Shown piece after piece: positions 14,109-37,206 of a DNA stretch of 39,625 bases. The position numbers were made by a program, and so were the translations under genes. Numbering within the stretch: the first letter of the stretch is position 1; each line of letters opens with the position of its first letter. This DNA comes from a virus. The DNA lies in the IMG/VR virus record IMGVR_UViG_3300034020_001270, positions 1 through 39,625 of that record; one strand, 5' to 3'. The notes under the pieces were generated by a model that made no database searches, was not told where the DNA came from, and was given only the letters and a program-made list of their open reading frames with translations.

Positions 14109-14420
14109 GAGTTGCGAAGGATGAAGGCAAAATCGGGGTTTTGGCAAAAAAAAATATTTTTTTTTGATTTACCGCCGATTTTGCCTTCGATCCTTCGCTA
14201 ATAAATCGTGTTGTTTTTCGATAGTTCGCAAAAACCGCCAAAAGTTGGGCCAAAACGCGAAGGATCGAAGGCATTGGGGTCATTCTATGTATGTTTCTAC
14301 TATAAAAATTAAAGTAGAGCGAAGGATAGCGAAGGATGAGCGAAGGATGAGCGAAGGATAATTTTTATCCTTCGGATGGTTGGGGGAAATTGGTGTAATA
14401 AAAGTTGCGAGGGTTTGGCG
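14109..14420. other. Probable replication origin with iterons
   Basis: A gene-free stretch directly after the primase-helicase gene. GCGAAGGAT occurs at 14114, 14257, 14319, 14329, 14340 and 14351, and in reverse at 14190-14198; the last four are spaced 10, 11 and 11 bases apart. The copies at 14114 and 14198 form a 23/24-bp inverted repeat around an A9-TA-T9-type AT-rich segment (14146-14169). A hairpin GAAGGATAA-TTT-TTATCCTTC closes the array at 14353-14373. Direct iterons, an AT-rich unwinding region and a neighbouring initiator-type helicase are what an origin needs. Function is inferred. Confidence 0.78.
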
Positions 14421-14891: not shown

Positions 14892-15124
14892 ATTGGTTGG
14901 TGGTGGTGGTGGCGGCGGGGGTGGCGTTGGGGGTGATGGTGATGGTGGTGGCGCTGGTGCAGGAGCGGGTGAACCAGCGGTTGGCGTCGGCGGAAAGGCG
15001 GTTGCGGTATCTGGAAGATAACGTGGTGTGGTCGGGTGATAATAAGGGATTATCGGTCGAGGGGCAGAAGCATAGGACTTATAGGATTGAGGGGAGGAAT
15101 GGGCGATGCAAGCGGGGTTTGTGA
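14888..15124 (+). CDS. Small membrane protein with coiled coil; C-terminus encoded by repeats
   Basis: A 78-aa frame overlapping the previous gene by four bases (ATGA). Residues 3-24 are a membrane helix (WLVVVVAAGVALGVMVMVVALV), followed by a short coiled coil (ERVNQRLASAERRLRYLE). The last 30 residues (from SGDNKGLSVEGQ) are translated from palindrome copy 6 and a heptad repeat, and the stop lies inside the next gene. The ancestral protein probably ended earlier. Function unknown. Confidence 0.58.
   Translation: MNWLVVVVAAGVALGVMVMVVALVQERVNQRLASAERRLRYLEDNVVWSGDNKGLSVEGQKHRTYRIEGRNGRCKRGL
15033..15059. repeat. GATAA-N7-TTATC palindrome, copy 6
   Basis: Core 15038-15054, left arm TCGGGT, right arm GGTCGAGGGG. 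Followed by a heptad-type repeat (ATAGGACTTATAGGA). It lies within the 3' end of a small membrane protein gene, shortly before the next start. Confidence 0.78.
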
Positions 15125-15312
15125 CGATTCGGAGGAAGGGTTGCCGGTATCATGGGCGGCGGGGGATGATTCAGCAGATTGAACCAACGAATGAGTTTCG
15201 GGTGCATAATGGGCAGCCCTATGATCTGTTGCATATCAAGTTGGAGCGGGATGCGAAGGTAGTGCGGGTGCCGAGTTATTTTGTGCCGGAGTATGATGCG
15301 ACGGCGCATTGA
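15106..15312 (+). CDS. Small SH3-like protein of unknown function
   Basis: A 68-aa protein. The pattern GFVTIRRKGCRYHGRRGMIQQIEPTNEFRVHNG looks like a small beta-barrel with a turn at HGRRG, comparable to KOW/SH3-type folds, but no family can be named. GGAGG is found at 15093-15097, with GGGCG closer to the ATG. Confidence 0.6.
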   Translation: MQAGFVTIRRKGCRYHGRRGMIQQIEPTNEFRVHNGQPYDLLHIKLERDAKVVRVPSYFVPEYDATAH

Positions 15313-15540
15313 TGAATGGCCAGTGAAAGGGGGTGATGGCTGGGAATTGATAATTGAAGATTGAGGATTGGTGATGGGTGGGTGTTTTGCGGCGCCACCC
15401 ATCACCCTGACCGCTGGGGCCGGTAAAGGATGGCCAGCGGCTGATTGGTGATTATACACCATGACGCCTTCCAGCGGATGTTTTTACAACCGTTGGGGGG
15501 CGTTTTGTTTTCGCCCTCCGGGATGAATGAGGAGGGTTTG
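15313..15540. other. Intergenic region with strong hairpin 15370-15406
   Basis: No gene is supported. A perfect 12-bp inverted repeat (GGTGATGGGTGG / CCACCCATCACC) with a 13-base loop lies at 15370-15406 without a U-tract, preceded by an AT-rich repeat-like run (AATTGATAATTGAAGATTGAGGATTG). ATGGCCAG occurs at 15316 and 15429. It could be a remnant of a host-type intergenic repeat. Confidence 0.5.
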
Positions 15541-15867
15541 ATGAAGGGGTTTTTGGGGTTTCATACGGTGAAGGTGGTTTTGGCGTTGGTGGGGGCGGAC
15601 TGGGGCTTTCAGACGACGGCGCAGGCGATGCAGAAGGGGCGGTGTTGGCGGCATCGGTTGCGGCATGTGTTGATGGTGGCGGCGTTGCAGGGGTTGTCAG
15701 CACGGACGGCGCGGGTGAGCTGGAATATGTGGGCGCTGTTTGTGGTGATTAATGGGGTGAGTCATTTTGTGATCGATTCGCTGCGGTTGGCGAAGTGGGT
15801 GGAGCAGGGGTTGCATGTGGCGGTGGCGGTGGTGACGGCGCCGTTGGTGAAGGAAGGGGGGCGGTGA
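15541..15867 (+). CDS. DUF3307-like membrane protein
   Basis: A 108-aa protein with AGGAGGG before ATG 15541. The pattern H-x(13)-DWGFQT, then K---W-HRLRHVL, then NGVSHFVIDSLRLAKWVEQGLHVAV matches the DUF3307 family of phage and bacterial membrane proteins, with its conserved FxxQ, His and HxxID-xK--xxxDQxxH residues. The family has no established function. It may sit in the inner membrane. The next gene starts inside its stop codon. Confidence 0.72.
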   Translation: MKGFLGFHTVKVVLALVGADWGFQTTAQAMQKGRCWRHRLRHVLMVAALQGLSARTARVSWNMWALFVVINGVSHFVIDSLRLAKWVEQGLHVAVAVVTAPLVKEGGR

Positions 15868-16133
15868 TGTTGAATGAGCATGTAATCATCATCGCAATGG
15901 CGCTGCTCATCTTCTGGCTGGCTTTCGGCGGCAAAGCGGGCCTGGTGGCGGCAATCCTCAGTGCAATTATGATGGTTGGAGCGTTACGCCATCCCGAAAT
16001 TGCCACAGGTAAACCGATGGCAGGCACGCAAGAGGAAAACTTACACGCAACGATGCTGCTAGTCGGTTTGATTCTCATTCCGCCGATGTTGTGGTTGTCT
16101 CTGAAACGATTGTTTAGAAGGGGTGGACAATGA
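15867..16133 (+). CDS. Small two-helix membrane protein
   Basis: An 88-aa protein starting one base inside the previous stop. Hydrophobic spans at about 5-35 and 60-80, with a basic tail (KRLFRRGGQ). From here to about 17.84 kb codons end in C more often and the G-rich strand bias weakens, so the block looks like a separate acquisition. No family recognised. Confidence 0.65.
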   Translation: MLNEHVIIIAMALLIFWLAFGGKAGLVAAILSAIMMVGALRHPEIATGKPMAGTQEENLHATMLLVGLILIPPMLWLSLKRLFRRGGQ

Positions 16134-16342
16134 ACGACTGGCAAGCAGAAATCAGGATTCTGGTTTACGGGGCAAACGACTGGCGGGGTAAATATGTCGC
16201 TTGTTTGTATGAGACTGAAGACTTGGCCGCCGCAGATGATGAGGCAATGAGGCGCGCCACTGGCAGTGGTGACACGCCACTGGAAGCGGCGGCGGCGCTG
16301 CTGAATTGCGCTGTTTCCGAAAGAAAGCGGTGGCAAAAATGA
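16130..16342 (+). CDS. Small soluble protein of unknown function
   Basis: A 70-aa protein overlapping its neighbours by four bases on both sides (ATGA). It reads as a small alpha/beta domain: an N-terminal strand pair (AEIRILVYGANDWRGKYVACLYE) and a helix with many Ala residues. It is the one non-membrane product of this block besides the 59-aa protein. No family recognised. Confidence 0.63.
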   Translation: MNDWQAEIRILVYGANDWRGKYVACLYETEDLAAADDEAMRRATGSGDTPLEAAAALLNCAVSERKRWQK

Positions 16343-16605
16343 TGTGGGCGCTTCTAATTTTCAGCCTGTGTTGCCTCGTCACCCCGTTCTTTGGGATCGG
16401 CGTGGCTGGGCTAATCGCCTGGGGGCTGTTGTCGCTGCTGTTCGGCGCTGCTGAACAGGGTGTCGAGCAAATGAGCGAAGCGGCGACCAGTGGCGACACC
16501 GGGCGCGCTGGCTGCTGGCTGTGGGCGGTTGGTGCGTTCGTTGCCGTTGGTGGTGCGGTTGTGCTGCTGGTGGCGCTGAGTGTTGCAGGAGGGTTGCGGC
16601 CATGA
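16339..16605 (+). CDS. Small membrane protein
   Basis: An 88-aa protein with two hydrophobic spans, residues about 3-36 and 60-84, separated by a short polar linker (EQMSEAATSGDTGRAG). It starts in an ATGA overlap. No family recognised; part of a run of small membrane proteins. Confidence 0.65.
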   Translation: MMWALLIFSLCCLVTPFFGIGVAGLIAWGLLSLLFGAAEQGVEQMSEAATSGDTGRAGCWLWAVGAFVAVGGAVVLLVALSVAGGLRP

Positions 16606-16892
16606 ATACATTGCTGATTATTTTAATGGGGATCATGTTGGCGCTACTGAATCCGTTGTTGCTGCTGGCAATGCCACTAATCCTGTGGGGCGTCAATAGC
16701 GCAGATCGGACGGAGAGCGCTGTTAGCAATGCCACAGGGAGCGGAGCGGCCGGCGGGTGTGTTGGTGGCATTGTTTTTGTCTTTTGCCTGATTGTTTTCT
16801 CGTTGGTTGGGCTGGCGTTGTTCGCTATGGCTATTGAGGGTAGCGATTGCCCCACGGCGCTGATCAATCAGGTGATGGGGCGGTGTCCATGA
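16602..16892 (+). CDS. Small membrane protein
   Basis: A 96-aa protein with an N-terminal span (about 3-32), a Ser/Gly-rich linker and a second span (about 52-80). ATGA overlap with the previous gene. The alternation of two spans and a polar linker copies the plan of its upstream neighbour, so they may be distant duplicates. Confidence 0.65.
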   Translation: MNTLLIILMGIMLALLNPLLLLAMPLILWGVNSADRTESAVSNATGSGAAGGCVGGIVFVFCLIVFSLVGLALFAMAIEGSDCPTALINQVMGRCP

Positions 16893-17008
16893 TACACGAT
16901 TCAAAGAGCATCATCGTTGCGCTGTGCATCGCCGGGGCCTTGTTCCTGGCTGGCTGGGGGTTCATCATCTACGGGTTGACGATGGCGACGGAGGGCTTAT
17001 GGTCATAA
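16889..17008 (+). CDS. 39-aa single-pass membrane peptide
   Basis: A 39-aa frame (MIHDSKSIIV start) joined by an ATGA overlap to the gene before and overlapping the next start by ten bases. Residues 8-31 form one membrane helix. Its place in an unbroken chain of overlapping genes supports translation. Confidence 0.58.
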   Translation: MIHDSKSIIVALCIAGALFLAGWGFIIYGLTMATEGLWS

Positions 17009-17178
17009 CAATCACTGTTCCGGCGCAAACGGTCTACATGCACGGCAACGCTCACCACTTGAGCCGCACCGGGTGTAACCGGTTGTTGGCGTGGCTTTTC
17101 GGTAATGCGGAGTTGATTAGGGGTTGGGACTATGGTGAGTATGTTTTCCGTGTGGAGGTGGATCGTGCAGAAGGTTAA
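16999..17178 (+). CDS. Small soluble protein of unknown function
   Basis: A 59-aa protein starting within the end of the preceding peptide gene. It has a beta-like N-terminus (MVITITVPAQTVYMHG) and an alpha/beta remainder with GWDYGEYVFRVEVDRAEG at the end. Longer versions of this frame begin inside the preceding gene without a ribosome binding site. No family recognised. Confidence 0.55.
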   Translation: MVITITVPAQTVYMHGNAHHLSRTGCNRLLAWLFGNAELIRGWDYGEYVFRVEVDRAEG

Positions 17179-17641
17179 AGAGCAGACACAAAACCGCTAT
17201 AACGGACTTGAGAACTTTGTCCAACCGGGGCAGACGACGGCCATGACCCGGCGACCACGAATTGAGGTGTTGCCGCCAGCGGAGACGACACACAGGCTTG
17301 ATGTGCCGATGCAGGCGACACAGCATATTGAGATGAAGACAAGCGCGGTTGACCGGAGTAAGGGGTTTTTGATTGCCAACGTGCCATTGTTCGGGGCGTT
17401 TGCGCTGGGCGTGTGGCTATTGTCGGGCCTGGTGACAACCACACCGCTATTTAGCTTCTTGGGGCTGTGCATCCTGTGGTCTTCGTTTGTGCTGGCCTGG
17501 CTGGCGTCCTACTGGTACACGTTGCGGGTGAGCGCTGAGGGGATCGCTATGTACGAGGCGAAAAGTAAATGGGGTGTGATTCAGGAAGAGCAGCGGCGCC
17601 GGTGGCAACACTATGATCGGCTTATCGAAGGGGAGGAATAG
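17132..17641 (+). CDS. Membrane protein with two helices
   Basis: A 169-aa protein from ATG 17132; a GTG at 17165 has a better Shine-Dalgarno (GGAGG, 6-base spacer) and would shorten the overlap with the upstream gene, so it may be the true start. The N-terminal 75 residues are soluble, two helices follow (about 82-102 and 108-128), and the tail is charged (EEQRRRWQHYDRLIEGEE). Probably a membrane-anchored cytoplasmic domain. Function unknown. Confidence 0.65.
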   Translation: MVSMFSVWRWIVQKVKEQTQNRYNGLENFVQPGQTTAMTRRPRIEVLPPAETTHRLDVPMQATQHIEMKTSAVDRSKGFLIANVPLFGAFALGVWLLSGLVTTTPLFSFLGLCILWSSFVLAWLASYWYTLRVSAEGIAMYEAKSKWGVIQEEQRRRWQHYDRLIEGEE

Positions 17642-17842
17642 ATGGACACTGTGATTGCGCTGCTTGCTATCGCACTAGTCGCGCACATGGTTAAGCCGCC
17701 GTTTCGCAGTAGGGCCATGCGCACAGACGGCAATATGTTTGCTGGCCTGGTGGCGGCGGTAATCTTCTTGGCGCTTTCCCTGATCAACCTGGGGGCAACG
17801 GTAGCGGCTGTAATCATGATGGGGGTGAGCCTATGGAACTGA
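17642..17842 (+). CDS. Small two-helix membrane protein
   Basis: A 66-aa protein with GGGGAGGAA before its ATG. Spans at about 3-18 and 34-62 joined by a basic segment (RSRAMRTDG). It closes the block of small membrane genes and overlaps the next gene by ten bases. Confidence 0.65.
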   Translation: MDTVIALLAIALVAHMVKPPFRSRAMRTDGNMFAGLVAAVIFLALSLINLGATVAAVIMMGVSLWN

Positions 17843-18393
17843 CACAACTGATTGAACGGACGCAGGATGTACGCCAGGCGTTGCCGGGGCCGAGTGTGAA
17901 ACAGCGGTTGGCGCAGGCGGCGGCGGAGTTGAGCCATGCGGGGGAGAATCAGATGCGGGTGGAGTTGTTGAATGAGGCGACGCTGGCGTTGGTGCGGGTG
18001 TTGTATGAGGTTGACCCGGATGGGGTGCCGGCGAATCTGGATCGGCGGACGTTTCGGTTGTTGGTGCCGGCGCCGTGGGGCCGGGCGGGTTGGCGGAAGT
18101 GGGGGTTGCGGTATTGGGAGAGTGAGATTTTCAAGCGGATTTTGCAGGTGCGGTGTCAGGTTAGAAGGGGGGCGCCGTTGTTTGATTACAATGAGGCGGC
18201 GCGGACGTGGCATTTGAATTGGGCTGATTATCCGCGGTTGGATCTGGCGCTGATGTATTGGAAGCAGCAGCCGATTACGTTGAAGGAGTGGCGGTTGCAC
18301 GCGGATGTTTATCGGATGCGTGCGTATGAGCGGATGAACAGACACCGGCATGATGCCGGGGGCGAGGGGGATAGCGAAGACGGCACGATGTGA
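17833..18393 (+). CDS. Hypothetical soluble protein
   Basis: A 186-aa protein, returning to the G/T-rich codon style of the phage. It is helical at the N-terminus, then has a Trp/Arg-rich middle (APWGRAGWRKWGLRYWESEIFKRILQVRCQVRRG) and an acidic, Gly-rich end. No catalytic motif is visible. It ends the operon that starts at 15541. Confidence 0.6.
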   Translation: MELTQLIERTQDVRQALPGPSVKQRLAQAAAELSHAGENQMRVELLNEATLALVRVLYEVDPDGVPANLDRRTFRLLVPAPWGRAGWRKWGLRYWESEIFKRILQVRCQVRRGAPLFDYNEAARTWHLNWADYPRLDLALMYWKQQPITLKEWRLHADVYRMRAYERMNRHRHDAGGEGDSEDGTM

Positions 18394-18584
18394 GCGTGAA
18401 ATGAGAGCGAAGTTAGCACGATGCGAGAGCGATGGGTGAGCGATGGGTGGGGGAAGTGTGTCATAGGGTGTAGCTCAGGGTATCGCGAACCAGAGGTAGG
18501 AATTGGGTGGGGTGATAATTCTCTATTATCACTCCACCTTGGATGGGACAAATAGGACAGATACGAGAGATAGGATGGGGGGGT
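18394..18584. other. Intergenic region with palindrome and heptad repeats
   Basis: No gene. It contains short runs of GCGA/GAGC repeats near 18395-18440, palindrome copy 7, then a heptad-type run (ATGGGACAAATAGGACAGAT style) at 18543-18580 that ends in a purine-rich stretch before the next ATG. Confidence 0.55.
18509..18535. repeat. GATAA-N7-TTATC palindrome, copy 7
   Basis: Core 18514-18530. Arms are unusually long: GGTGGGGTGATAAT against ATTATCACTCCACC with one mismatch. It precedes the Toprim gene. Confidence 0.8.
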
Positions 18585-19481
18585 ATGCCTAAGATTTCAT
18601 ATATCGAAAAGCAGTTCAAGGTTGATTCGTTGGCGTTGATCGAGCGGTGCAATGCGGTGATCGTGGACTATCAACGGCAAGGGTTTTCCCTCACTTTGCG
18701 GCAGCTTTATTATCAGATGGTGAGTCGGAATATTATTGAGAACACGGAGCGCAGTTACAAGCGGCTTGGTGATCTGGTTAGCAATGCGCGGTTGGCGGGG
18801 CTGATTGATTGGAATGCGATTGAGGACCGTGGGCGGAATTTGCGCCAGAATGGGCATTGGTCAACGCCGGCTGAGATTATTCGGTCGGCGCGGCGCAGTT
18901 ATCGGGTTGACAAGTGGGAGGGGCAGCGCTACCGGCCGGAAGTGTGGATCGAGAAGCAGGCGTTAGAGGGGGTGATTGCGGGGGTGTGTAGTCGCTTGGA
19001 TGTGCCGTATTTTGCGTGCAAGGGCTATAACTCGCAGTCAGAGCAGTGGGGGGCGGGGCAACGGTTGCGGGGGTATATGCAGGCTGGGTATGAGCCGATT
19101 ATTTTTCACTTAGGCGACCATGACCCTTCGGGGATTGATATGACCAGGGATAACCGGGATCGGCTTGAGATGTTTATGGGGGGCGTCGAGTTGCGACGGT
19201 TGGCGCTCAATATGAGCCAGATTGATGAGTATCAGCCGCCACCCAACCCGGCGAAAGAGTCGGATTCGCGCTTTGCTTCTTATATCGAGTTGTATGGTGA
19301 TGAGAGTTGGGAATTGGATGCGCTGGAGCCGCAGGTGCTGGTTGGCTTGATCGAAAGCGCCGTTCTAGGGATTCGGGATAATGAGCCGTATGAACGGATG
19401 GTGGCGTTGGAGAATGAGGGGATTCGCTTGCTGCAAACAGTCGAAAGCCACTGGGATGCGGTGGTGGAATATTTGGGGTGA
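18585..19481 (+). CDS. Toprim protein resembling Topo VI-A/Spo11
   Basis: A 298-aa protein. Residues about 33-60 (GFSLTLRQLYYQMVSRNIIEN) match the winged-helix segment of Topo VI-A/Spo11 that holds the DNA-cleaving tyrosine (R-x-x-YY; here Y42/Y43). Residues about 118-185 match the Toprim part: VWIEKQAL (E123) and HLGDHDPSGIDM (D178, D180, D185), close to the D-x-DP-GI-I motif of that family. No B-subunit ATPase gene is seen, so it would act alone or with a host partner. Possible roles are DNA nicking, replication priming/resolution or anti-plasmid defence. Family assignment is from recalled motifs. Confidence 0.72.
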   Translation: MPKISYIEKQFKVDSLALIERCNAVIVDYQRQGFSLTLRQLYYQMVSRNIIENTERSYKRLGDLVSNARLAGLIDWNAIEDRGRNLRQNGHWSTPAEIIRSARRSYRVDKWEGQRYRPEVWIEKQALEGVIAGVCSRLDVPYFACKGYNSQSEQWGAGQRLRGYMQAGYEPIIFHLGDHDPSGIDMTRDNRDRLEMFMGGVELRRLALNMSQIDEYQPPPNPAKESDSRFASYIELYGDESWELDALEPQVLVGLIESAVLGIRDNEPYERMVALENEGIRLLQTVESHWDAVVEYLG

Positions 19482-19498
19482 CATGATGAGGTGACAAG

Positions 19499-19630
19499 AT
19501 GAAAAGAAATACAATAACGGGTGAGCAGATGGCCTTGTTGGTGGAGGAGCGGGCGGCGCCAGTGCCGATGGTGGCGGCGAAGCGGGGGGTGGGCGGGAAG
19601 CGGCGGGGCAGTTGGTGTTGGGAGATATAA
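19499..19630 (+). CDS. Short basic peptide
   Basis: A 43-aa frame (MKRNTITGEQ start) with GAGGTGA seven bases upstream. The C-terminus is basic and Gly-rich (AAKRGVGGKRRGSWCWEI). Too short to place in a family; translation is plausible but not certain. Confidence 0.42.
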   Translation: MKRNTITGEQMALLVEERAAPVPMVAAKRGVGGKRRGSWCWEI

Positions 19631-19641
19631 CTTAAGGGCAA

Positions 19642-19671
19642 CCGACAATAACCGCACGGGTGTGCTATAAT
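19642..19671 (+). promoter_or_regulatory. Extended -10 promoter ahead of packaging genes
   Basis: TGC-TATAAT (extended -10; TATAAT at 19666-19671) with CCGACA 18 bases upstream. The -10 context GGTGTGCTATAATGGGGG is nearly the same as at 23098-23116, so the two promoters are probably related. The start would fall at about 19678, inside the stem of the terminator that follows. Confidence 0.65.
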
Positions 19672-19673
19672 GG

Positions 19674-19725
19674 GGGGTGTGCGGCGAGGGGGAGGGGTGA
19701 TGCGAGGGCCGCACACCCCTTTTTT
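19674..19725 (+). terminator. Intrinsic terminator just after the promoter
   Basis: A perfect 12-bp stem (GGGGTGTGCGGC / GCCGCACACCCC) with a 22-base loop followed by TTTTTT. It would end transcripts from upstream genes. Transcripts from the promoter at 19642 would stop after about 48 nt unless antiterminated. Confidence 0.82.
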
Positions 19726-19823
19726 GTTGGAGCGCATGATTTACCATTTATTTACGATTATATATATGTTGGCGACGACGGGTTTTGGGTGTGGTTGGTT
19801 GCGGGACTGGCCACACCCACCTT

Positions 19824-19850
19824 CGGGTGATAAGGGTTTGTTATCGGTCG
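19824..19850. repeat. GATAA-N7-TTATC palindrome, copy 8
   Basis: Core 19829-19845, left TTCGGGT, right GGTCGGGGG. Followed by a heptad-type run (ATGGGAGTAATGGGATAAGG) directly before the CHAT gene. Confidence 0.78.
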
Positions 19851-19878
19851 GGGGATTGATGGGAGTAATGGGATAAGG

Positions 19879-20610
19879 ATGGATATGGTGGGGAAGTTGC
19901 GGGTGTTGGTGGTGGCGCCGGCGCATTCGGATCTGCCGAATGTGGCGGCGGAGGTGGCGGCGGTGGCGGGGCATCATGAGGCGGTGGTGTTGCCGGGGGT
20001 GGTGCGGGATCGGGATATTGCGGCGGCGATTGAGGCGGGGCCGTATGATGTGGTGTGGTTTGCGTCGCATGGGAGTTCGCAGGGGATTTTGTTGAGTGAT
20101 GGGCTGCTGAGTATTGATGGGGTGGGGCAGTATGTGCGGACGGCGGCGGCGGGGTTGTGTGTGCTGAATTCGTGCGAGAGTGAGGAGGTGGCGTTGGCGA
20201 TTATGGCGACGACGCACGCTGATACGATTTGCACGATTGCCGAGGTGCAGGATCGGGATGCGAGCCGATTGGCGATCCTGCTGGCCAGGGAGTTGGCGCG
20301 CACGCCGGATTATCAGGAAGCTTATGAGTTGGTGCGGCCGGCGAGCGGGAAATATCGGTATTACCGGGCGGGGGATGGGGCGTATCGTAGCCGGGATCGG
20401 GATCGGGAGCGTGAGGGGGAATGGCAGGAGTTGCTGGTATCGGTCTATGAGCTACGATCCGATGTCCGGGTGATGCGGACGTGGTTGACGGTGATTCTGT
20501 TTGGGCTGGCGCTGGTGGTGGCGGTGGAGGTGGCGCTGTGGGTCTATACGGGGAGCATTGCGCGGGAGTTGGCGTCGTATGCGAATGAATTGGAGCGGCT
20601 AGCGCGCTGA
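19879..20610 (+). CDS. CHAT/caspase-like peptidase with C-terminal membrane anchor
   Basis: A 243-aa protein. Residues about 7-150 show the caspase-fold pattern of CHAT peptidases: a first strand LRVLVVAPA, then YDVVWFASHGSSQGILLSDG with the catalytic His64, then GLCVLNSCESEEVA with the catalytic Cys99. A basic linker (RSRDRDRERE) leads to one membrane helix at about 202-223 and a short helical tail. CHAT proteins usually belong to bacterial conflict and signalling systems. A membrane-tethered, single-gene version in a phage between a promoter-terminator unit and the terminase genes is unusual. It could act in superinfection exclusion, lysis timing, host-protein cleavage or abortive response. 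The substrate cannot be read from sequence. Confidence 0.82.
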   Translation: MDMVGKLRVLVVAPAHSDLPNVAAEVAAVAGHHEAVVLPGVVRDRDIAAAIEAGPYDVVWFASHGSSQGILLSDGLLSIDGVGQYVRTAAAGLCVLNSCESEEVALAIMATTHADTICTIAEVQDRDASRLAILLARELARTPDYQEAYELVRPASGKYRYYRAGDGAYRSRDRDREREGEWQELLVSVYELRSDVRVMRTWLTVILFGLALVVAVEVALWVYTGSIARELASYANELERLAR

Positions 20611-20646
20611 CTTCGTGTAGACAACGTTTGCGGCTGGGGGTAGAAA

Positions 20647-21309
20647 ATGGGCCGGAAGGATGGAAACTCCGAATTTTCCGGTTTTACGGCGCCAGGCAAT
20701 GCGCCGGGGCAAGCGGAGAGCCGGGTGAGTAAGGAGCGGCTGGAGGGGTTGTTGGCGGCGCGGCGGGCGTTGCCGGAGCCTTCGTTTGCAGAGGCGACGC
20801 CGGAACCGGTGGCATGGGAGGCGCTCTATCGGGATTTGTTGGAGGAGCGGACGGCGGATGGGAAGTTGCGGTGGGACTGGCGGAAGGCGCTGTATATTGC
20901 GTGGTCTTGCGTGCCGACTGGGCAGCGCTGGCCAAAGTATGAATATGAGTTGGCCAGCGATTTTTTGGGGTTGACCAACACGCGCACGATCCGCGAGTGG
21001 AAGTTGAAAGACCCGGAGATTGAGGAGCGGATTGCGGCGGGGCCGAAGCGGTTGTTGTTGGGCCATGTGGCGAATGTGTTGGAAGCGCTGGTGTTGGTGG
21101 CCACCCAAGCGGATGCGAAGTCGCACCCGGACAGAAAGTTATTTTTGGAACTGACGGGGCAGTATAAGCCGGCGGGCAAGGTCGAGCTAACGGGCGAGGG
21201 TGGCGGGCCGATTGATGTGCGCGAGGTGGGGGAGTTGAGTGACGAAGAGTTGGAGCGTATTGCCACAGGACGCGGCTCAGGAGTTATTAAACAGGCGCAA
21301 CGCACGTAA
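20647..21309 (+). CDS. terS: Terminase small subunit
   Basis: A 220-aa protein directly upstream of, and overlapping by 71 bases, the large terminase gene. The middle (about 80-135) is helix-turn-helix-like: WRKALYIAWSCVPTGQRWPKYEYELASDFLGLTNTRTIREWKLKDPEIEERI, the DNA-recognition part of small terminases. The end VRELGELSDEELERIA-type pattern (here VREVGELSDEELERIATG) is typical of small subunits that contact the large one. It would recognise the packaging site. Circular permutation of the assembly suits headful packaging, but cos packaging is not excluded. Confidence 0.83.
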   Translation: MGRKDGNSEFSGFTAPGNAPGQAESRVSKERLEGLLAARRALPEPSFAEATPEPVAWEALYRDLLEERTADGKLRWDWRKALYIAWSCVPTGQRWPKYEYELASDFLGLTNTRTIREWKLKDPEIEERIAAGPKRLLLGHVANVLEALVLVATQADAKSHPDRKLFLELTGQYKPAGKVELTGEGGGPIDVREVGELSDEELERIATGRGSGVIKQAQRT

Positions 21310-22765
21310 AGGGCTGCTGGCCTTTACTCAATATACCTATCCCCAATATCAGGCTGACCTGGTGCATGGGTTGATTGCGGGGCATTTGGATCGGGTGGTG
21401 GCGGGGGAGATCCGGCGCTTGATGATCTTTGCGCCGCCACAACATGGGAAGAGTGAGTTAACCTCAGTACGGTTGCCGGCTTATTGGTTGGGGCGCCGGC
21501 CGAATGACCCAATTATTATTACAAGTTATGGGGCTGAGCTGGCGGAGAGTAAGAGCCGGCAGGCGCGGGATATTGTGGAGAGTGGCGAGTATCGGGCGCT
21601 CTTTGGTGATCTGCGGGCGGGTGAGATTGAGTCGGTGCAGGTGCGGCCGGATAGCCGGGCGGTGCAGCGCTGGCAGTTGATGCACCCCAACCGAGGGCGG
21701 GTTCTCGCCGTCGGCGTGGGTGGGCCGGTGACGGGGCATGGTGCGCTGCTGGGGATTATTGATGACCCACATGAGAATTGGGAAGAAGCGCAGAGCGCGA
21801 CGATGCGCCGGCGGGTGTGGGAGTGGTATCGGGGGACATTCCGCACGCGCATTTGGGAGGGCGGGGCGATTGTGCTGATCATGACCCGGTGGCATGAGGA
21901 TGATCTGGCGGGGAAGTTGTTGAAGGAACAGCCAGGGCAATGGACGGTGTTGCGGTTGCCGGCGATTGCAGAGAGCCAGGAAGAGCGGGATAACAATAAT
22001 CGGTTGATGGGGTTGCCGCTGGGGGAGCCTGATCCGTTGGGGCGGGCGGCAGGGGAGGCGGTGGCGCCGAAGCGCTACAGTGCGACGGAGTTGCAGAGCA
22101 TTGCCAAGGACGTGGGGAGTATGGTCTTTGGGGCGGAGTATCAGGGCAGCCCACGGGCGACGGAGGGCAATCTGATTAAGCGGCCCTGGTTGCGGATTGT
22201 GACTCAAGCGGCGCCGGCGACGCCTTACCGGATTCGTTATTGGGATAAGGCGGCGAGTGTGAGTAAGAGCGCCAAATTCAGTGCCGGGGTACGGCTGGCG
22301 ATTGCGCTGGATGGGCGGGTGGTGATTGAGGATGTGGTGCATGGGCAGTGGACAACCAAGGAGCGACGCAACGTGATGTTGCAGACGGCCCAGTTGGATG
22401 CGGCGGCGTTTAACAATGGGGTCTTTGTGTTTATTGAGCAGGAGCCGGGGTCGAGCGGCGTGGATAGTGTGCAGGATGAGATTGCGTTGCTGGCTGGTTA
22501 CCCGGTCTTTGCGGACAAGGCGACGGGTGATAAGGATGTGCGGTTGATGCCGTTTATTGCGCAGGCTGAGGCGCTGAATGTGGTGTTGCTGCAAGGGGCG
22601 TGGAACCAGGTCTATATTGATGAGATGGTGGTGGTTCCCAATGGGACGTATCGCGACCAGGTGGATGCAACGGCGGGTGCCTATAATCGGGCGATTGAGT
22701 TGGTGCGGACGCCGCCGGCGAGAACCGTGGTACATGAGGAGTTTGTTTCGATTTCGCAATTCTGA
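21239..22765 (+). CDS. terL: Terminase large subunit
   Basis: A 508-aa packaging motor. ATPase: Walker A variant APPQHGKS at 65-72, Walker B LLGIIDDP with D175/D176, coupling motif MTRWHEDD at 215-222. Nuclease: YWDKAA with D336 in an RNase H-like fold, VFIEQEPGSSG with E400/E402, and a further acidic cluster GDKDVR. This is the family described as putative large terminase with a C-terminal nuclease domain. The GTG at 21239 overlaps the small subunit gene; a TTG about seven codons on is an alternative. Translation is probably coupled. Confidence 0.93.
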   Translation: MTKSWSVLPQDAAQELLNRRNARKGLLAFTQYTYPQYQADLVHGLIAGHLDRVVAGEIRRLMIFAPPQHGKSELTSVRLPAYWLGRRPNDPIIITSYGAELAESKSRQARDIVESGEYRALFGDLRAGEIESVQVRPDSRAVQRWQLMHPNRGRVLAVGVGGPVTGHGALLGIIDDPHENWEEAQSATMRRRVWEWYRGTFRTRIWEGGAIVLIMTRWHEDDLAGKLLKEQPGQWTVLRLPAIAESQEERDNNNRLMGLPLGEPDPLGRAAGEAVAPKRYSATELQSIAKDVGSMVFGAEYQGSPRATEGNLIKRPWLRIVTQAAPATPYRIRYWDKAASVSKSAKFSAGVRLAIALDGRVVIEDVVHGQWTTKERRNVMLQTAQLDAAAFNNGVFVFIEQEPGSSGVDSVQDEIALLAGYPVFADKATGDKDVRLMPFIAQAEALNVVLLQGAWNQVYIDEMVVVPNGTYRDQVDATAGAYNRAIELVRTPPARTVVHEEFVSISQF

Positions 22766-22774
22766 GAGGTGTGT

Positions 22775-22975
22775 ATGGCGTTTCGGGATGTGCGCTTAAA
22801 AGAAGGAAATCGGTTGGTGTTTCGGTTTGACCCGGAGCAGGATGTGGTGGCGATTGTGGTGCGGGGGGAGATGGTGGAGATCAACCTGGATGAGTATCGG
22901 TTACCCCATCAACGGAGACAGGGTATGATGGGGGTGGATTTTCGACGGATTGAGGGACGGGAGGAGAGCGACTGA
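22775..22975 (+). CDS. Small protein after terminase
   Basis: A 66-aa protein starting at ATG 22775 with GAGAGGTG just upstream. It is beta-rich (LVFRFDPEQDVVAIVVRGEMVEINLDEYR) with a basic, acidic-ended tail. It ends the packaging operon before a terminator. No family recognised. Confidence 0.65.
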   Translation: MAFRDVRLKEGNRLVFRFDPEQDVVAIVVRGEMVEINLDEYRLPHQRRQGMMGVDFRRIEGREESD

Positions 22976-22995
22976 TAATAAGGCGTTATCGGTCG
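22969..22995. repeat. GATAA-N7-TTATC palindrome, copy 9
   Basis: Core 22974-22990, arms CGACT and GGTCG. It contains the stop codon of the preceding gene and is followed by a heptad run and the terminator at 23016. Confidence 0.78.
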
Positions 22996-23015
22996 AGGGG
23001 ATAGATGGGAGTTAT

Positions 23016-23050
23016 AGGGCTGATGGGTTTGCCATCGGCCTTATTTTTTT
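23016..23050 (+). terminator. Intrinsic terminator of the packaging operon
   Basis: An 11-bp stem with two G-U pairs (AGGGCTGATGG / CCATCGGCCTT), loop GTTTG, followed by ATTTTTTT. It separates packaging genes from the late promoter. Confidence 0.85.
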
Positions 23051-23082
23051 GGTTGGGCGCGCCTAAGTGGGAATTTTTCTCA

Positions 23083-23111
23083 TTGACAGGGGGCGATAGG
23101 TGTGCTATACT
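23083..23111 (+). promoter_or_regulatory. Late promoter (extended -10)
   Basis: TTGACA at 23083-23088, 17-base spacer, TATACT at 23106-23111 with TGC before it. Strong match to sigma70 consensus, so probably constitutive. It is the only good promoter seen before the long lysis-head-tail block. Confidence 0.82.
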
Positions 23112-23117
23112 GGGGGC

Positions 23118-23231
23118 TGCTGATTCCTCTGGTTGTGAATTGAAGAGACGGGTGGTGGTTGCCGGCCATTGCCCACGAACGCCGTAAGAGCGTCATTGAC
23201 CTGGTTTGCCAGGTTGGTGGCGCTCTTTTTA
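23118..23231 (+). ncRNA. Late leader RNA ending in terminator (6S-like arrangement)
   Basis: From the predicted start near 23118 to the terminator U-tract is about 114 nt with no supported gene. A strong promoter, a short leader and an intrinsic terminator before the late genes copies the lambda pR'-6S RNA-tR' layout, where an antiterminator lets polymerase pass. No Q-like gene is recognised here, so regulation is inference. It could equally be a stand-alone small RNA. Confidence 0.55.
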
Positions 23232-23236
23232 TTTTC
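23186..23236 (+). terminator. Leader terminator before late genes
   Basis: Outer 10-bp stem (AAGAGCGTCA / TGGCGCTCTT, one wobble), inner 6-bp stem (ACCTGG / CCAGGT) with loop TTTG, then TTTTTATTTT. It lies 12 bases before the next gene start. Confidence 0.82.
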
Positions 23237-23247
23237 CGGGAGTTTTT

Positions 23248-23880
23248 ATGGCGCGGTTATCCCAAGGTGCGGAATTTATGAAGTTGCAGATCCAGCCGAT
23301 TGATCCGCCGGCTGGGTTCGGGAAGTATGTGGTGAAGGATATTTTTACCACAGCGGATGGATCGTGGGATATGAATGGGACGATCTTCTCCATCACATCG
23401 TGGGCGCGTAATGGGTATCTGAAGCCGATGGGGTCGCCGGATTATTTTGATGACGCCGGCGGGGCGACGCATTTGTTTGCGCGGGTGGAGGATGAGAACG
23501 GGCGGGCGAAGGCGCTGGATGTGCGCTTTTTTACGGGCAATCTGGCTGTTGCGGAGAATACAGGGCAGAAGAAGAGCGGCTGGGCCAATATGTTTATGAA
23601 TGGCGATTCGGCCTTTTATATCGAGCAAGGGCAGCGGGGGCCGTGGTCGGCGATTCCGCTGGTGCCTTATGCGGAGGCGGTGACGGGGTTGGGGTTGCCG
23701 AATCGATGGCATGTTTCGACGTTTGTGGTGTGGAAGTGGCAGCCGGCCCAAGTGGTGACACCGCCGATTGATCCGCCAGTTGAGCCGCCGGTGGGTGGTG
23801 ACGTGGAAAAACGCCTGGCGTGGTGCGAGCGGGAGATTCGCCAGTTGAAAGGGTTGTTGAAACAGTGGACGGGGGAATGA
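23248..23880 (+). CDS. Hypothetical late protein with Pro-rich linker
   Basis: A 210-aa protein, first of the late block; GGGAG lies six bases before its ATG. Residues about 11-165 form a beta-rich domain (FTTADGSWDMNGTIFSITSWARNGYLKP, HLFARVEDENGRAKALDVRFFTG). It is followed by a Pro-rich linker (PPIDPPVEPPVGG) and a short C-terminal helix. A globular domain on a linker suits a carbohydrate- or wall-binding partner of the adjacent hydrolase, which starts within its stop codon. That role is inference. Confidence 0.62.
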   Translation: MARLSQGAEFMKLQIQPIDPPAGFGKYVVKDIFTTADGSWDMNGTIFSITSWARNGYLKPMGSPDYFDDAGGATHLFARVEDENGRAKALDVRFFTGNLAVAENTGQKKSGWANMFMNGDSAFYIEQGQRGPWSAIPLVPYAEAVTGLGLPNRWHVSTFVVWKWQPAQVVTPPIDPPVEPPVGGDVEKRLAWCEREIRQLKGLLKQWTGE

Positions 23881-24263
23881 GCGCCGCCGGGCATGAACGC
23901 CTGGCGGCGTTGGATGATACGCAGTTGCTGGCGCTGTGCATTTGGGGTGAGGCACGGGGAGAATCGGTGACGGGGCAATTGGCGGTGGCGCATGTGGTGT
24001 TGAATCGGGCGGCGAGTCCGCGTTGGTGGGGGCATGATGTGCGGTCGGTGATCTTGAAGAAATGGCAGTTTTCGTACTTCAATAGTCGGTCGCCGGGGCC
24101 GGGGTTGGTGCAGTTGGCGATTGCGGAGTTGGCCATGGGGAAGTTGACGCTTGATCCGACGTTGGGGGCGACGCATTATCATGCGGTAGGGGTGACGCCG
24201 GATTGGACGCGGTTGCTGCGGCATGTGGTGGATATCGGGCGGCATCGGTTTTATGTGGAGTAG
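23877..24263 (+). CDS. Cell-wall hydrolase (endolysin, SleB/Hydrolase_2 type)
   Basis: A 128-aa enzyme. LALCIWGEARGES-GQLAVAHVVLNRA, QFSYFN and ATHYHAVGVTPDWTRLLRHVVDIGRHRFY match the Hydrolase_2 family of peptidoglycan-cleaving enzymes (SleB-type lytic transglycosylase/amidase), with the conserved E in WGEARGE as the catalytic residue. It has no signal peptide, so release would need a holin. ATG 23877 overlaps the preceding stop by four bases; a longer frame upstream lies within that gene. The following 54-aa membrane protein is the holin candidate. Confidence 0.88.
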   Translation: MSAAGHERLAALDDTQLLALCIWGEARGESVTGQLAVAHVVLNRAASPRWWGHDVRSVILKKWQFSYFNSRSPGPGLVQLAIAELAMGKLTLDPTLGATHYHAVGVTPDWTRLLRHVVDIGRHRFYVE

Positions 24264-24271
24264 ACCCTACC

Positions 24272-24299
24272 CCCAGCCCTCCCCAGATCGGAGAGGGGA
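24272..24299. repeat. REP-like CCCC/GGGG inverted repeat, copy 2
   Basis: CCCAGCCCTCCCC and GAGAGGGG around AGATCG, next to palindrome copy 10. Same kind as the elements at 8853 and 34567. Confidence 0.6.
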
Positions 24300-24307
24300 G
24301 TAAAGGT

Positions 24308-24334
24308 CGGGTGATAACTCTTTCTTATCAGTCG
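24308..24334. repeat. GATAA-N7-TTATC palindrome, copy 10
   Basis: Core 24313-24329; right flank AGTCGAGGAGGGG supplies the ribosome binding site for the next gene. Confidence 0.78.
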
Positions 24335-24342
24335 AGGAGGGG

Positions 24343-24507
24343 ATGATGCTGAAGCAGTGGGTGGAGACGGTTTACCGGGAGCATGGGATGGTAGGGGTTG
24401 GGGCGTTGGTGTTGATTTTGTTGGTGGCGGTGTTGGGGTTGGCGAAGGCGGCGGGGATGGAAGTTGGCGAGGCCTGGCAGTTGATGATGGGGTGGTTGAA
24501 TGGCTAA
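24343..24507 (+). CDS. Small single-pass membrane protein, holin candidate
   Basis: A 54-aa protein with GAGGAGGGG before two possible ATGs (24343 and 24346). One hydrophobic span at about 16-37 (MVGVGALVLILLVAVLGLAKAA), charged N-terminus and a short amphipathic tail. It follows the endolysin and overlaps the portal gene by eight bases. Holin or holin-like activity is inferred from size and position only. Confidence 0.62.
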   Translation: MMLKQWVETVYREHGMVGVGALVLILLVAVLGLAKAAGMEVGEAWQLMMGWLNG

Positions 24508-26134
24508 ACGGAGTTCGCAGACAGCGCAGATCCAGCAGTTGCAAGGGGAGAATATCGAGTTGCAGGAACGCCTGGCGGCGCTGGAGATGGCGTTGGAGGC
24601 GGATGGTTGGCGGATGCTGACGATGCAGGCCGATCAGGAGTTTAGCCGGGAGGGGTTGCGGCTGATCACGGAGTTGAGCCGGATTATGTCGCTGAAGAAT
24701 CCGCTGATTAAGCGCGGGGTGCAGGTGCAGCGGCTGTACGTGTGGGGTCAGGGTTGGAATGTGAAGGCGAGTGACCCGGATGTGCAGGGCGTGCTGGACG
24801 CTTTTATGAAGGACCCGAAGAATCAGGTGGAGTTGACGAGCCACCAGGCGCGGATGCAGAAGGAGACGGAGCAGACGACGGATGGGAATACCTTCTTTGT
24901 CTTCTTTGTGAACGCGTTGACGGGGCGGGTACGGGTGCGCACGTTCCAGTTTGAAGAGGTGATCGAGATTGTGTGTGATCCGCAGGATGCGAAGTCGCCG
25001 TGGTATTACAAGCGGTCTTGGTCGGAACAGACGTTGGATGCCGGCAGCGGGGCGATTGCGACGATGGTGAAGACGGCGTATTACCCGGATTGGCGTTACA
25101 ACCCGGTGAACAAGCCGGCGAGTATTGGGAGCTATCCAGTGCGGTGGGAGAATCCGGTTTACCACATCAAGACGGGCGGGTTTTCTAACTGGAAGTTTGG
25201 TTGTTCGGAGATTTATGCGGCGATTGATTGGAGCCGGGCCTATAAGGAATTCCTGGAAGACTGGGCGAGCATTGTGCGCGCTTATCGTCGATTCGCTTTC
25301 CAGTTGAGTACGCCGGGCGGGAAGAGTGCGATTGCGGCGGCCAAGGCCAAGCTGGGTACGACGTATGGCGCTGGTGGGCTGGGGGCGGAGACGAATCCGG
25401 CGCCGGTGGTGGGTAGTACGTTTGTGGCGGGCGACAATGTGAATTTAACACCGGTGCGCACATCCGGGGCGACGGTGGCGGCGGAGGATGGGCGGCGGTT
25501 GTTGTTGATGGTGGCGGCGGCGGTGGGGTTGCCTGAAACGTTTTTTGGCGATGTGAGCGTGGGGACGCTGGCCACGGCGAGCAGCCTTGACCGACCGACT
25601 GAGTTGGCGATGCGGGACCGGCAGACCTTTTGGCAGGATATTTTTCAAGCCATTTTTGATTTTGTGTTGCTGTGGGCGGTGAAGGCGCCACGGGGGCCAC
25701 TGCGGGGGCTGGGAACGGTTGTCGTCGAGCGGGATGGGGATGAGATTAGCGAGACGGTGGATTGGGGCGATGTAGACGCGCATATTGATATTGATTTTCC
25801 GCCGATCAGGTCGGAGGCGTTGGATGCGCAGATGCGGGCGATTGTTTCGGCGGCGACGCTGGATGGGAAGGCGCCGGCGGGGACGCTGGATCTGATGACG
25901 ACGGCGCGATTGATGTTGGTGGCGCTGGGGGTGGATGATATTGATGCCATTTTACAAAAACTCTTCGACGAAGAGGGGCGGGCGTTGAATCCGGTGGGTC
26001 AGGGGGTGGATGGGACAAATGGGAGTGATGCGACGGATGGGGCGACGGATGGCGCTGCGGTGGAGGCGATGATGGTGCGGGCGGTGCGAGAGTTGCGGGA
26101 TGCGTTGGTGCGGTTGCGTGAAGGCGTGGAGTGA
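24500..26134 (+). CDS. Portal protein
   Basis: A 544-aa protein that forms the dodecameric ring for DNA entry at one capsid vertex. It starts with a coiled coil (about 9-35), then the portal core: LITELSRIMSLKNPLIKRGVQVQRLYVWGQGW, the wing and stem region around VRTFQFEEVIEIVCDPQDAKSPWYYKRSW, and the later ATASSLDRPTELAMRDRQTFWQDIFQAIFDFVLLWAV segment seen in portals. The last residues (VGQGVDGTNGSDATDGATDG) are encoded by a heptad-type ATGGGAC repeat at about 25997-26050. The order portal, head proteins, capsid agrees with the call. Confidence 0.85.
   Translation: MAKRSSQTAQIQQLQGENIELQERLAALEMALEADGWRMLTMQADQEFSREGLRLITELSRIMSLKNPLIKRGVQVQRLYVWGQGWNVKASDPDVQGVLDAFMKDPKNQVELTSHQARMQKETEQTTDGNTFFVFFVNALTGRVRVRTFQFEEVIEIVCDPQDAKSPWYYKRSWSEQTLDAGSGAIATMVKTAYYPDWRYNPVNKPASIGSYPVRWENPVYHIKTGGFSNWKFGCSEIYAAIDWSRAYKEFLEDWASIVRAYRRFAFQLSTPGGKSAIAAAKAKLGTTYGAGGLGAETNPAPVVGSTFVAGDNVNLTPVRTSGATVAAEDGRRLLLMVAAAVGLPETFFGDVSVGTLATASSLDRPTELAMRDRQTFWQDIFQAIFDFVLLWAVKAPRGPLRGLGTVVVERDGDEISETVDWGDVDAHIDIDFPPIRSEALDAQMRAIVSAATLDGKAPAGTLDLMTTARLMLVALGVDDIDAILQKLFDEEGRALNPVGQGVDGTNGSDATDGATDGAAVEAMMVRAVRELRDALVRLREGVE
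25997..26050. repeat. Heptad-type repeat inside portal gene
   Basis: ATGGGAC, AAATGGG, AGTGATG, CGACGG, ATGGGG, CGACGGATGG: the intergenic heptanucleotide pattern seen elsewhere, here translated as Asp/Gly/Thr-rich residues near the portal C-terminus. Confidence 0.5.
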
Positions 26135-26154
26135 TAAGAAGGAATTATCAGTCG
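26128..26154. repeat. GATAA-N7-TTATC palindrome, copy 11
   Basis: Core 26133-26149; its first base-triplet TGA is the portal stop codon and the flank AGTCGAGGGGGG serves as ribosome binding site for the next gene. Confidence 0.78.
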
Positions 26155-26166
26155 AGGGGGGAATAG

Positions 26167-28539
26167 ATGGGGTCGATTAGCGATATTTATAAGTTTCGGG
26201 AGGTTGATCAGAAGGGGAACCCATTAAATGGATTTGGCGGGGTATTTATCGAGACCTTTGAATCTTATACGCCGGGAAGTAAGTGGTTGGAAAGCAAGGC
26301 GACCGGGGACATTATTCAGGTAGATGGGAATACAGCCGCAGCATCCTATTTGGTTATTTCAAAGGACCCGTTAGCACCAGGGACGGAAAGCGTGGTTACC
26401 GCGGTGATGAATTTTCCTACGCCTTTAGAAATGGCGATGGGGATTCATTTATCACAGCGCACATTCGGGCAGGAATTTGCCATAGAAATTGTGGACACAG
26501 GGCCACTGATTTCCCCTGTAGCGGAAAGAGCGATTTCGGCTATTTCACAAACAACGACAACATTGACGATTGACACCATAGCCGCTCATGATCTACTACC
26601 AGGGATGCGGATCGGGATCTATGGGGTCACAGATTCGCGATTAAATTACCCGGCATTAGTCGTATTGACCGCACCTAGTGCAAATCGTGTTACCGTTGCT
26701 TCTGGGCCGAATGGAACGATTCCGAGTTTGACGGTTGGGCCGTTTGCTTCAGGGATGATTTATTACCGTCCAGCGTTGGGCTATTCGGCAAATGGTACGA
26801 GCATGATTTTTGAGAATGGCACGGCAACCAACGCGAGTTTCTATTCGCGTGCTGATGCCGGAGATACTTTGCCGGGGGCAGGCATAACCGGCACTCATCA
26901 ATCAACGATAGGCTCAACGGCATCTGTGCAAGCAGTAAATGCGCCCAACAGCTATGCGTTTCAACCAACAACAGAATATCGGTCGTATTTGCAACAGGAT
27001 CGTGTGCAGTGGAGTGATGTTGCCGTAGACAGTACGGGATTGATGACAAACCGTTTGCTTAGAACACAGGTGGTACCGAGTAGTGAAAAGCTCTATAAGT
27101 TGCGCATTCGAGCCATCAATAGCAAGGGGTTGTCGGTTCCCATCGGGCAAATAGTCAGCATCGCCAAAAGCGGGACGACGACGGCCACTGTGGTGCTTCA
27201 TCAGGCGCACGGCCTAACTACAGGCGACAACATTAACCTGTATGGCGTGCGTGATCAGACGAATTTTCCCAACCTGGCGGTGGCCACAGTGGTGGCATCG
27301 GTTGTGAATTCGACCACGATTACCGTGGTGATTGGGAGTGCGGTGACGGCGACCAGTTATGGTGGGTATGTTGCGCTCTGCAATGGTGGCAATCTTATGT
27401 CGGCGCTAGGGGCGATTGCGCAGGTGGCGGCGAGTGCGGTGCTGGCTGGGGGCGTGCTGACGATTACCGGCAATGCGGCCTGGGCTGGGCTATTGATTGG
27501 CGATTATGTTAATGTCACCGGGTTGCGGGTGGATGGGACTGGCGCTAGTCTGGATTGCGATGGCGCATGGAAAGTTAGAAACATTAGTACGACCAGCCTG
27601 GAATTGTTACCATTGCCGGGGACAACCGCACCAACTGACTTTGCTTCGACCAACTGTGGTGGCGGCATCATCAAGAGATCAGATCTACGGATTTCGTATG
27701 CGCGGTTGTTCGCTTATCAGCGGCAACGGGTTGAAATGTTGCCGCGGCCGAGCCAAGACGCCAGTCAAGCCGTGCCGGTGCAGATTACTGGTGGTAGCAA
27801 CGTTTCCATGAGCGCCACCCAATCGAGTCGGGTGACACTCGGCAACGGCTGGTACATGGAGCCTGACAATGTGTTGTTTGCCGATGTGGCCACTGCCGCG
27901 CTGACGACGACCACGACCACGGCGACTATTATGCCAACGCCAGTTGGGGCGGCGGCGGAATTTAACATTGTGGTGACGGCGGTGAGTGGGACGAGTGCGA
28001 CGCTAGACGTAGGGATTGAGGAGAGCGACGACTCAGGCGTGAACTGGTACCGAATCTACGATTTTCCGCGGATTACGACCACCGGCGCGTATCGGTCGCC
28101 GGTGCTGCCGCTCAGTGGCAACCGGCTGCGCTATGTGCAGACGGTTGGCGGGACAACCCCATCGTTTACGCGGGTGCTCAACCGAATCACGCACCAAATG
28201 GTCAGCCCTCCACCGTATCGGCAGGTTATAGATCGTGCTGTGGCGGTTGGCACATTGAATGCCACGACGGTGGCATTAAAAAGTAATGGGGCCAAAAATA
28301 TCCAGTTGGTTTTGTCGATGGGGGCGATTACGACCACGGCGCCGGCGCTACAAATTGAAGGTAGCGACGACAATGGGGCGACGTGGTACGCGATTGGCGC
28401 GGCACTGACCGGCGTGGCAAGTGCGACAGTCCAGGTTACGGTCAATGATTTCAATGCTGACTTGCTTCGGGCCAGGGTGACAACGGCTGGGGTAGGGGCA
28501 ACGCTAGGCTACGCATTGTTGAAGACATACGGGGCATAA
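26167..28539 (+). CDS. Large structural protein of unknown type (virion surface candidate)
   Basis: A 790-aa protein between the portal and decoration genes. It is beta-rich with many Thr/Ser/Val repeats and appears to be built of several immunoglobulin- or jelly-roll-like units; segments such as TTATVVLHQAHGLTTGDNINLYGV and IDTIAAHDLLPGMRIGIYGV recur, suggesting a duplicated domain (twice or three times). Two later units (DVGIEESDDSGVNWYRIYDF and IEGSDDNGATWYAIGAAL) are also repeats of each other. Codon use is more even and less G-biased than the neighbours, especially in 26200-27150, a sign of recent exchange. It may be a receptor-binding or capsid-surface protein. No family is recognised with confidence. 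Confidence 0.7.
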   Translation: MGSISDIYKFREVDQKGNPLNGFGGVFIETFESYTPGSKWLESKATGDIIQVDGNTAAASYLVISKDPLAPGTESVVTAVMNFPTPLEMAMGIHLSQRTFGQEFAIEIVDTGPLISPVAERAISAISQTTTTLTIDTIAAHDLLPGMRIGIYGVTDSRLNYPALVVLTAPSANRVTVASGPNGTIPSLTVGPFASGMIYYRPALGYSANGTSMIFENGTATNASFYSRADAGDTLPGAGITGTHQSTIGSTASVQAVNAPNSYAFQPTTEYRSYLQQDRVQWSDVAVDSTGLMTNRLLRTQVVPSSEKLYKLRIRAINSKGLSVPIGQIVSIAKSGTTTATVVLHQAHGLTTGDNINLYGVRDQTNFPNLAVATVVASVVNSTTITVVIGSAVTATSYGGYVALCNGGNLMSALGAIAQVAASAVLAGGVLTITGNAAWAGLLIGDYVNVTGLRVDGTGASLDCDGAWKVRNISTTSLELLPLPGTTAPTDFASTNCGGGIIKRSDLRISYARLFAYQRQRVEMLPRPSQDASQAVPVQITGGSNVSMSATQSSRVTLGNGWYMEPDNVLFADVATAALTTTTTTATIMPTPVGAAAEFNIVVTAVSGTSATLDVGIEESDDSGVNWYRIYDFPRITTTGAYRSPVLPLSGNRLRYVQTVGGTTPSFTRVLNRITHQMVSPPPYRQVIDRAVAVGTLNATTVALKSNGAKNIQLVLSMGAITTTAPALQIEGSDDNGATWYAIGAALTGVASATVQVTVNDFNADLLRARVTTAGVGATLGYALLKTYGA

Positions 28540-37162: not shown

Positions 37163-37206
37163 TGAGGTGGCGGGTGGCAAGGGCTTGTCATCCGCCATTT
37201 GTTTTT

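Follow-up and report, generated by a model that had tools for sequence, protein, structure and literature searches.

A promoter-leader-terminator unit before the late genes of a phage genome and a small upstream protein as its candidate switch

Introduction

How are the late genes of a phage reached when the strong promoter in front of them leads almost directly into a terminator? In lambda, late control runs through the promoter pR′, a leader, the terminator tR′, and the antiterminator Q, and known Q proteins need not resemble one another. Late-gene timing in phages outside the well-studied host groups is largely unknown; a literature search of titles and abstract openings found no description of late control in Chloroflexota phages. 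Here, we analyze such an arrangement in IMG/VR virus record IMGVR_UViG_3300034020_001270, the whole of which (39,625 bases) is referred to below as the window.

Results

Genome context

An exact 123-base repeat occupies both ends of the record, so the genome is probably circular, at ~39.5 kb. Recognized gene products include two tyrosine recombinases, a Cro/CI-type repressor, a primase, a terminase, and a capsid protein. The portal is 47% identical to one on a Chloroflexota MAG contig (L152), which does no more than hint at the host. A distant DNA search of positions 22500 to 24200 in the phage collection returned no matches. Copies of a ~144-nt repeat lie at the record join (39359 to 39625 and 1 to 184), inside a long frame that spans the ends and is probably the tape measure gene. 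After the primase gene, a large A/T-rich inverted repeat (14114 to 14198) has near-perfect arms around A and T runs, and GAAGGAT repeats extend to 14369.

The window also contains sixteen exact GATAA-N7-TTATC palindromes, with similarity that extends into the flanks and spacers that are all different (0.49 expected even with one mismatch allowed). Their positions are

972, 4581, 6003, 8815, 11997, 15038, 18514, 19829
22974, 24313, 26133, 28549, 30661, 33485, 34544, 37212

Twelve were found in each of the records of two relatives, L007 and L011, and none in the reversed control. Their spacing is far more even than random (CV 0.33, 0.26, and 0.40 versus ~0.9). In the window, a tyrosine recombinase gene (8892) has one of the palindromes immediately before it, and so do its homologues in L011 and L089. 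These palindromes are reminiscent of mycobacteriophage stoperators and of SPBRE, the dispersed repressor sites bound by MrpR (PMC10516654).

A strong promoter runs into a strong terminator in front of the late block

The late junction contains the following elements:

23014 to 23044, + strand: terminator that closes the terL operon a short way before the promoter (13 pairs, then TTTTTT)
23083 to 23111, + strand: promoter TTGACA-17-TATACT with TGC extended −10 (11/12 matches)
~23118 to 23232, + strand: predicted leader RNA of ~115 nt (predicted start to end of T tail)
23137 to 23150, + strand: GAATTGAAGAGACG box common to L007 (from the alignment with L007)
23150 to 23174, + strand: first leader hairpin, structured, without a T tail (from the leader fold)
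23177 to 23194, + strand: GAACGCC-GTAA-GAGCGTC, a degenerate Com-type target whose second copy lies in the terminator 5′ arm
23186 to 23227, + strand: intrinsic terminator, 19 bp with 9 G-C pairs, then TTTATTTTCC, T tail to ~23237
23248 to 23880, + strand: first gene after the terminator, of unknown function, 49% identical in L007
23820 to 24263, + strand: reading frame with a cell wall hydrolase domain (lysin; PF07486, E 5.3e-19)

The promoter at 23083 is the best of 9 promoter-like sites in 15000 to 27000 and, as a sigma70-type match, outscores every other + strand site in the window, confirming the promoter proposed in the first-pass annotation. Only two other + strand sites, 7148 and 19642, scored at least 12, and the late block has no other strong + strand promoter. 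Transcription is predicted to start at ~23118, leaving ~68 nt to the terminator stem, so the computed spacing and the ~115-nt RNA agree with the ~70 and ~114 nt estimated earlier. The terminator is the best of 7 terminator-like sites in the same 15000 to 27000 region and is separated by 20 nt from the first lysis-side gene; the portal region lies downstream of the cell wall hydrolase gene. The leader (23117 to 23236) folds at −49 kcal/mol (z −3.8), a value equaled by none of 200 shuffles. The terminator had been described as two-part, but only the second hairpin has a T tail and is a terminator; the first is a structured hairpin.

Under a fixed rule (extended −10, terminator of −18 kcal/mol or lower within 260 nt, loop size limited), two promoter-terminator pairs were found in the window, at 4470 and 23083, the latter being the stronger, while 40 dinucleotide shuffles gave 0.2 pairs on average and 2 at most. 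A further unit was missed by the rule because of its limit on loop size:

19642 to 19722, + strand: second promoter-terminator unit, CCGACA-18-TATAAT with TGC, upstream of the CHAT, terS, and terL genes

The CHAT-domain protein of the window (19879 to 20610; PF12770, E 2.3e-8), beside the terminase genes, is possibly a defence or effector gene; CHAT homologues adjoin the promoter-terminator unit in L011, L270, and L311.

The unit recurs in relatives and changes place

Relatives were gathered via TerL and portal searches. L007 (TerL 83%) and L011 (TerL 74%) have the unit where the window has it; L137 and L164 have one at a different late junction, ahead of the head protease gene. There is no unit between terL and portal in L164, L087, L138, and L140, where it lies elsewhere or is absent from the piece examined. 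The unit therefore changes place, and a fixed terL-portal feature was rejected as its description. Among 85 loci, units near terL account for 14 rows on the terL strand, one of them a copy of the window, versus 2 on the opposite strand.

When a holin found beside such units was used as a query, 10 loci were obtained, 2 of them without most of the upstream DNA. All 8 loci with upstream DNA (7 distinct, 3 of the 8 being query records) have a near-consensus promoter, a leader, and a strong terminator directly before the holin, as read by eye and, for several, also automatically. Among units of this other kind, not linked to the small gene considered below, the gene upstream in L166 (4871 to 5704) encodes a DnaA N-terminal domain (PF11638, E 3.1e-10), and the same domain was read by eye for the upstream gene in L168, L175, and L180. 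Repeat-rich noncoding DNA precedes the promoter, and a replication origin perhaps lies beside the late promoter.

Some leaders carry RNA genes

The window leader has no Rfam family at gathering level (the best weak match, E 1.3, lies outside the leader) and no tRNA, and a known structured RNA or tRNA was thus rejected as its identity. The suggestion that the short RNA is itself the product may hold in view of the relatives: tRNA-Met is present in matching leaders of L011, G004, and L262, and another tRNA in L311. The ~1-kb leader of G004 contains five 38-nt repeats with spacers, the tRNA-Met, a G+C-rich stretch, and a terminator with the same arms. Its mini-array (L248:2861-3189), located between promoter and tRNA, is CRISPR-like, with spacers of ~35 nt, two of which are alike. 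The leaders of L007 (z −7.1) and L164 (z −5.9) are strongly folded. The leader RNA may thus also be a product.

A small protein gene accompanies the unit

No recognizable Q homologue had been reported for this DNA, and profile searches agree: PF03589 and PF06530 each matched 0 of 13 records. PF06323 also matched 0 of 13, but as no control genome matched it either, this result is uninformative. The antiterminator had been expected to be one of the small early genes, whereas the strongest candidate belongs to the terL operon and lies directly upstream of the promoter:

22775 to 22975, + strand: small protein gene, 66 aa, candidate RNA-binding antiterminator, from a family found directly upstream of promoter-terminator units

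Relatives keep this small gene directly before the promoter-terminator pair, which makes it a good candidate for a read-through switch. The family gene directly precedes the unit in the window and in L011, and in L007 it lies upstream with inserted genes between. L137 and L164 were judged to be members by eye before the profile scored them (E 0.0037 and 0.025). A profile search of other records recovered the ~65-aa family in 1 of 10 (G004), with a promoter immediately after it. Scanning for a terminator form taken from the G004 type gave 75 stretches, including L262, L270, L311, and L296, all four with a family member upstream (that of L296 being weak, E 0.43, and that of L262 recognized by eye only); no member was recognizable upstream in the terminator-pattern loci L266, L275, L282, and L306.

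All profile matches with E <0.5 among 47,194 open reading frames lie upstream of a unit, in several gene orders, in a set that is partly biased, as some loci had been fetched by terminator. For this reason, a search with the protein alone was run. It returned 13 loci, the new ones being L326, L327, L328 (with its copy L329), L330, and L331. L328 has a promoter, two tandem elements, and a terminator. L327 has the element, but its terminator lies only ~735 nt downstream. L326 and L330 have weak or variant unit forms, and in L331 a promoter is accompanied by a variant element shortly before a start codon, with no clear terminator; a strong terminator right after the family gene is absent from these three. 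In all, 15 family members were obtained in differing gene orders, each followed by the unit or, in some, by a weaker version.

The predicted structure of the 66-aa protein improved from pLDDT 62 with 3 sequences to 75 with 10, the latter model having four strands and a short helix. A structure search with the model gave no PDB match at E ≤0.001 (best VIA Z 4.1), and the best match in a sequence search had E 0.29.

The terminator arm contains a tandem element resembling the target of Com

In many relatives, the terminator contains a tandem GAGCGCC-N2-3-GAGCGCC, its second copy within the 5′ arm. The H. sputorum Com protein selects NGAGNNCC(N)2-3GAGNNCCNN by SELEX (PMC6483171), and the tandem of the relatives is the same motif. 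A loose GARYGYC pair, a form devised after viewing the loci, lies within 1.2 kb downstream of 12 of the 15 family members (0.012 expected per region). The published motif, fixed beforehand, was found downstream of 5 of the 11 members fetched by neither terminator nor motif pattern (0.016 expected per region): it is present in L007, L011, L248, L327, and L328 and absent from the window, L137, L164, L326, L330, and L331.

The window protein has no cysteine, and the window record has no match to PF10122. Alignment of the 15 family members with 3 Com-like proteins by hhalign gave an equivocal similarity, with a probability of 4.2 and E 0.0098 over 21 columns. L269 (PF10122 E 6.4e-5, just under the cut-off) and L295 (E 0.057) encode Com-like zinc ribbons upstream, and two CxxC pairs were seen by eye upstream in L276; all three are terminator-pattern loci. 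A search of titles and abstract openings found no report joining Com to antitermination.

Discussion

The promoter, the terminator, the tandem element in its 5′ arm, the recurring unit, and the linkage of gene and unit in several gene orders are observed, and they likely constitute a leader-terminator switch of the late operon. The specific form that we favor, at a probability of about 0.45, is that the upstream 66-aa protein switches the late operon on by binding the leader RNA and blocking the terminator. Polymerase would start from the promoter at 23083 and by default stop at 23186 to 23232, releasing a short RNA. Once accumulated, the 66-aa protein would bind the tandem GA(G/A)CG(C/T)C element of the nascent leader; because one copy of the element contributes to the terminator 5′ arm, bound protein would prevent the hairpin from forming, and polymerase would continue into the lysis, head, and tail genes. 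Timely expression of the 66-aa gene, its binding of the leader RNA, and read-through as a result of binding are what we infer from this arrangement.

This protein-operated switch is consistent with a unit that keeps its position in L007 and L011 and also turns up at further late junctions, with the same-strand excess of units near terL, with profile matches that all lie upstream of units, with the published Com motif downstream of 5 of 11 members, with the scarcity of other high-scoring + strand promoters, with the further terminator-like hairpin at 37201, farther into the late block, and with the five distinct members added by the protein-alone search, only L328 of which has the full set of promoter, elements, and terminator, the others being weaker or variant. 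Against it, the window element is degenerate and fails the published Com motif; the protein has neither cysteine nor PF10122 match; the profile similarity of its family to Com-like proteins is equivocal; in L326, L330, and L331 the gene is not directly followed by a strong terminator; and the holin units and most other searched records (all except 1 of 10) are without a recognizable family member. Another factor may therefore serve the holin-type units.

Such units, together with the pR′-tR′ layout, are what an unrecognized Q-type protein would account for. Using a DNA element in the −35/−10 spacer, as AlpA and lambda Q do, it would load on polymerase and make the enzyme ignore this and later terminators, the small protein being either the loading factor itself or unrelated. 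PMC7969949 and PMC11150451 place the elements of AlpA, Q, and, putatively, GafZ in that spacer, and A-10 C-9 R-8 was found there in 7 of 25 units versus 27 of 834 other promoter-like sites (p 2e-5), and in 4 of 21 held-out units (p 0.0055). This feature was, however, chosen after inspection of the units, a blind dinucleotide scan of the spacer ranked a different dinucleotide best, and the promoter at 23083 lacks it; weakly enriched in units and absent there, the spacer element was set aside. With PF03589 and PF06530 also unmatched in 13 records, we regard Q-type loading as unlikely here, while giving it real weight. The likeness to lambda noted at the outset stands for the layout, which the units of the relatives back. 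A put-like RNA antiterminator was rejected as a general rule, since among the holin loci the shortest leaders lack a stable hairpin upstream.

As the other main rival, the unit could be an RNA-cargo cassette in which the short RNA (a tRNA, decoy, or regulatory RNA) is the product, the terminator merely ends it, and the late genes are reached by ordinary leakage or from another promoter. The tRNAs, the CRISPR-like array of G004, and the strong folds in L007 and L164 speak for such cargo. The window leader, however, carries no tRNA or Rfam family, the terminator of the window, L007, L137, and L164 is followed immediately by the next gene, and the late block offers no second strong + strand promoter; a cassette appears unlikely. 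Far less probable is a role in translation, in which the protein would bind the leader so that the start of the following gene becomes accessible, the way Com acts on mom: Com activates mom translation by RNA binding (PMC6483171), and L331 has its variant element shortly before a start codon with no clear terminator, yet for the window, as for most relatives, the element forms an arm of a T-tailed hairpin that lies before, and not over, the ribosome-binding site.

Extending the protein-operated switch to the whole family, we tentatively propose, at somewhat under even odds, that these cysteine-free, Com-like proteins of ~65 aa are a new phage antiterminator that reads tandem GAGCGCC in the leader terminator and travels with the unit between late junctions, RNA cargo being housed in the interval between promoter and terminator. 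The novelty would lie in the regulator, in its RNA target placed within the terminator, and in the RNA cargo that the interval carries. If so, a single reporter could bring together the small gene, the short RNA element, and the terminator for testing, and the Com idea would be extended from translation to transcription. A leader switch might also account for the gathering of noncoding RNAs, a CRISPR-like array among them, ahead of late operons.

The arrangement shares with lambda a strong promoter, a short leader, an intrinsic terminator, the lysis and head genes that follow, and a regulator gene just upstream; it differs in that no testable Q family matches and that the candidate is a 66-aa protein whose likely target is the leader RNA. 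In Pseudomonas aeruginosa (AlpA) and Caulobacter (GafZ), too, an antiterminator turns on lysis or particle genes behind a terminator; in contrast, AlpA is reported to recognize DNA sites within the promoter, and GafZ putatively does so (PMC7969949 and PMC11150451). Phage Mu Com, a zinc-finger RNA-binding protein (PMC6483171), controls translation of mom, whereas the family described here lacks the zinc-binding cysteines, falls outside PF10122, and has its element in a terminator arm; common to both are the small size of the protein and, in many relatives though only in degenerate form in the window, a tandem GAGNNCC-N2-3-GAGNNCC beside the family gene.
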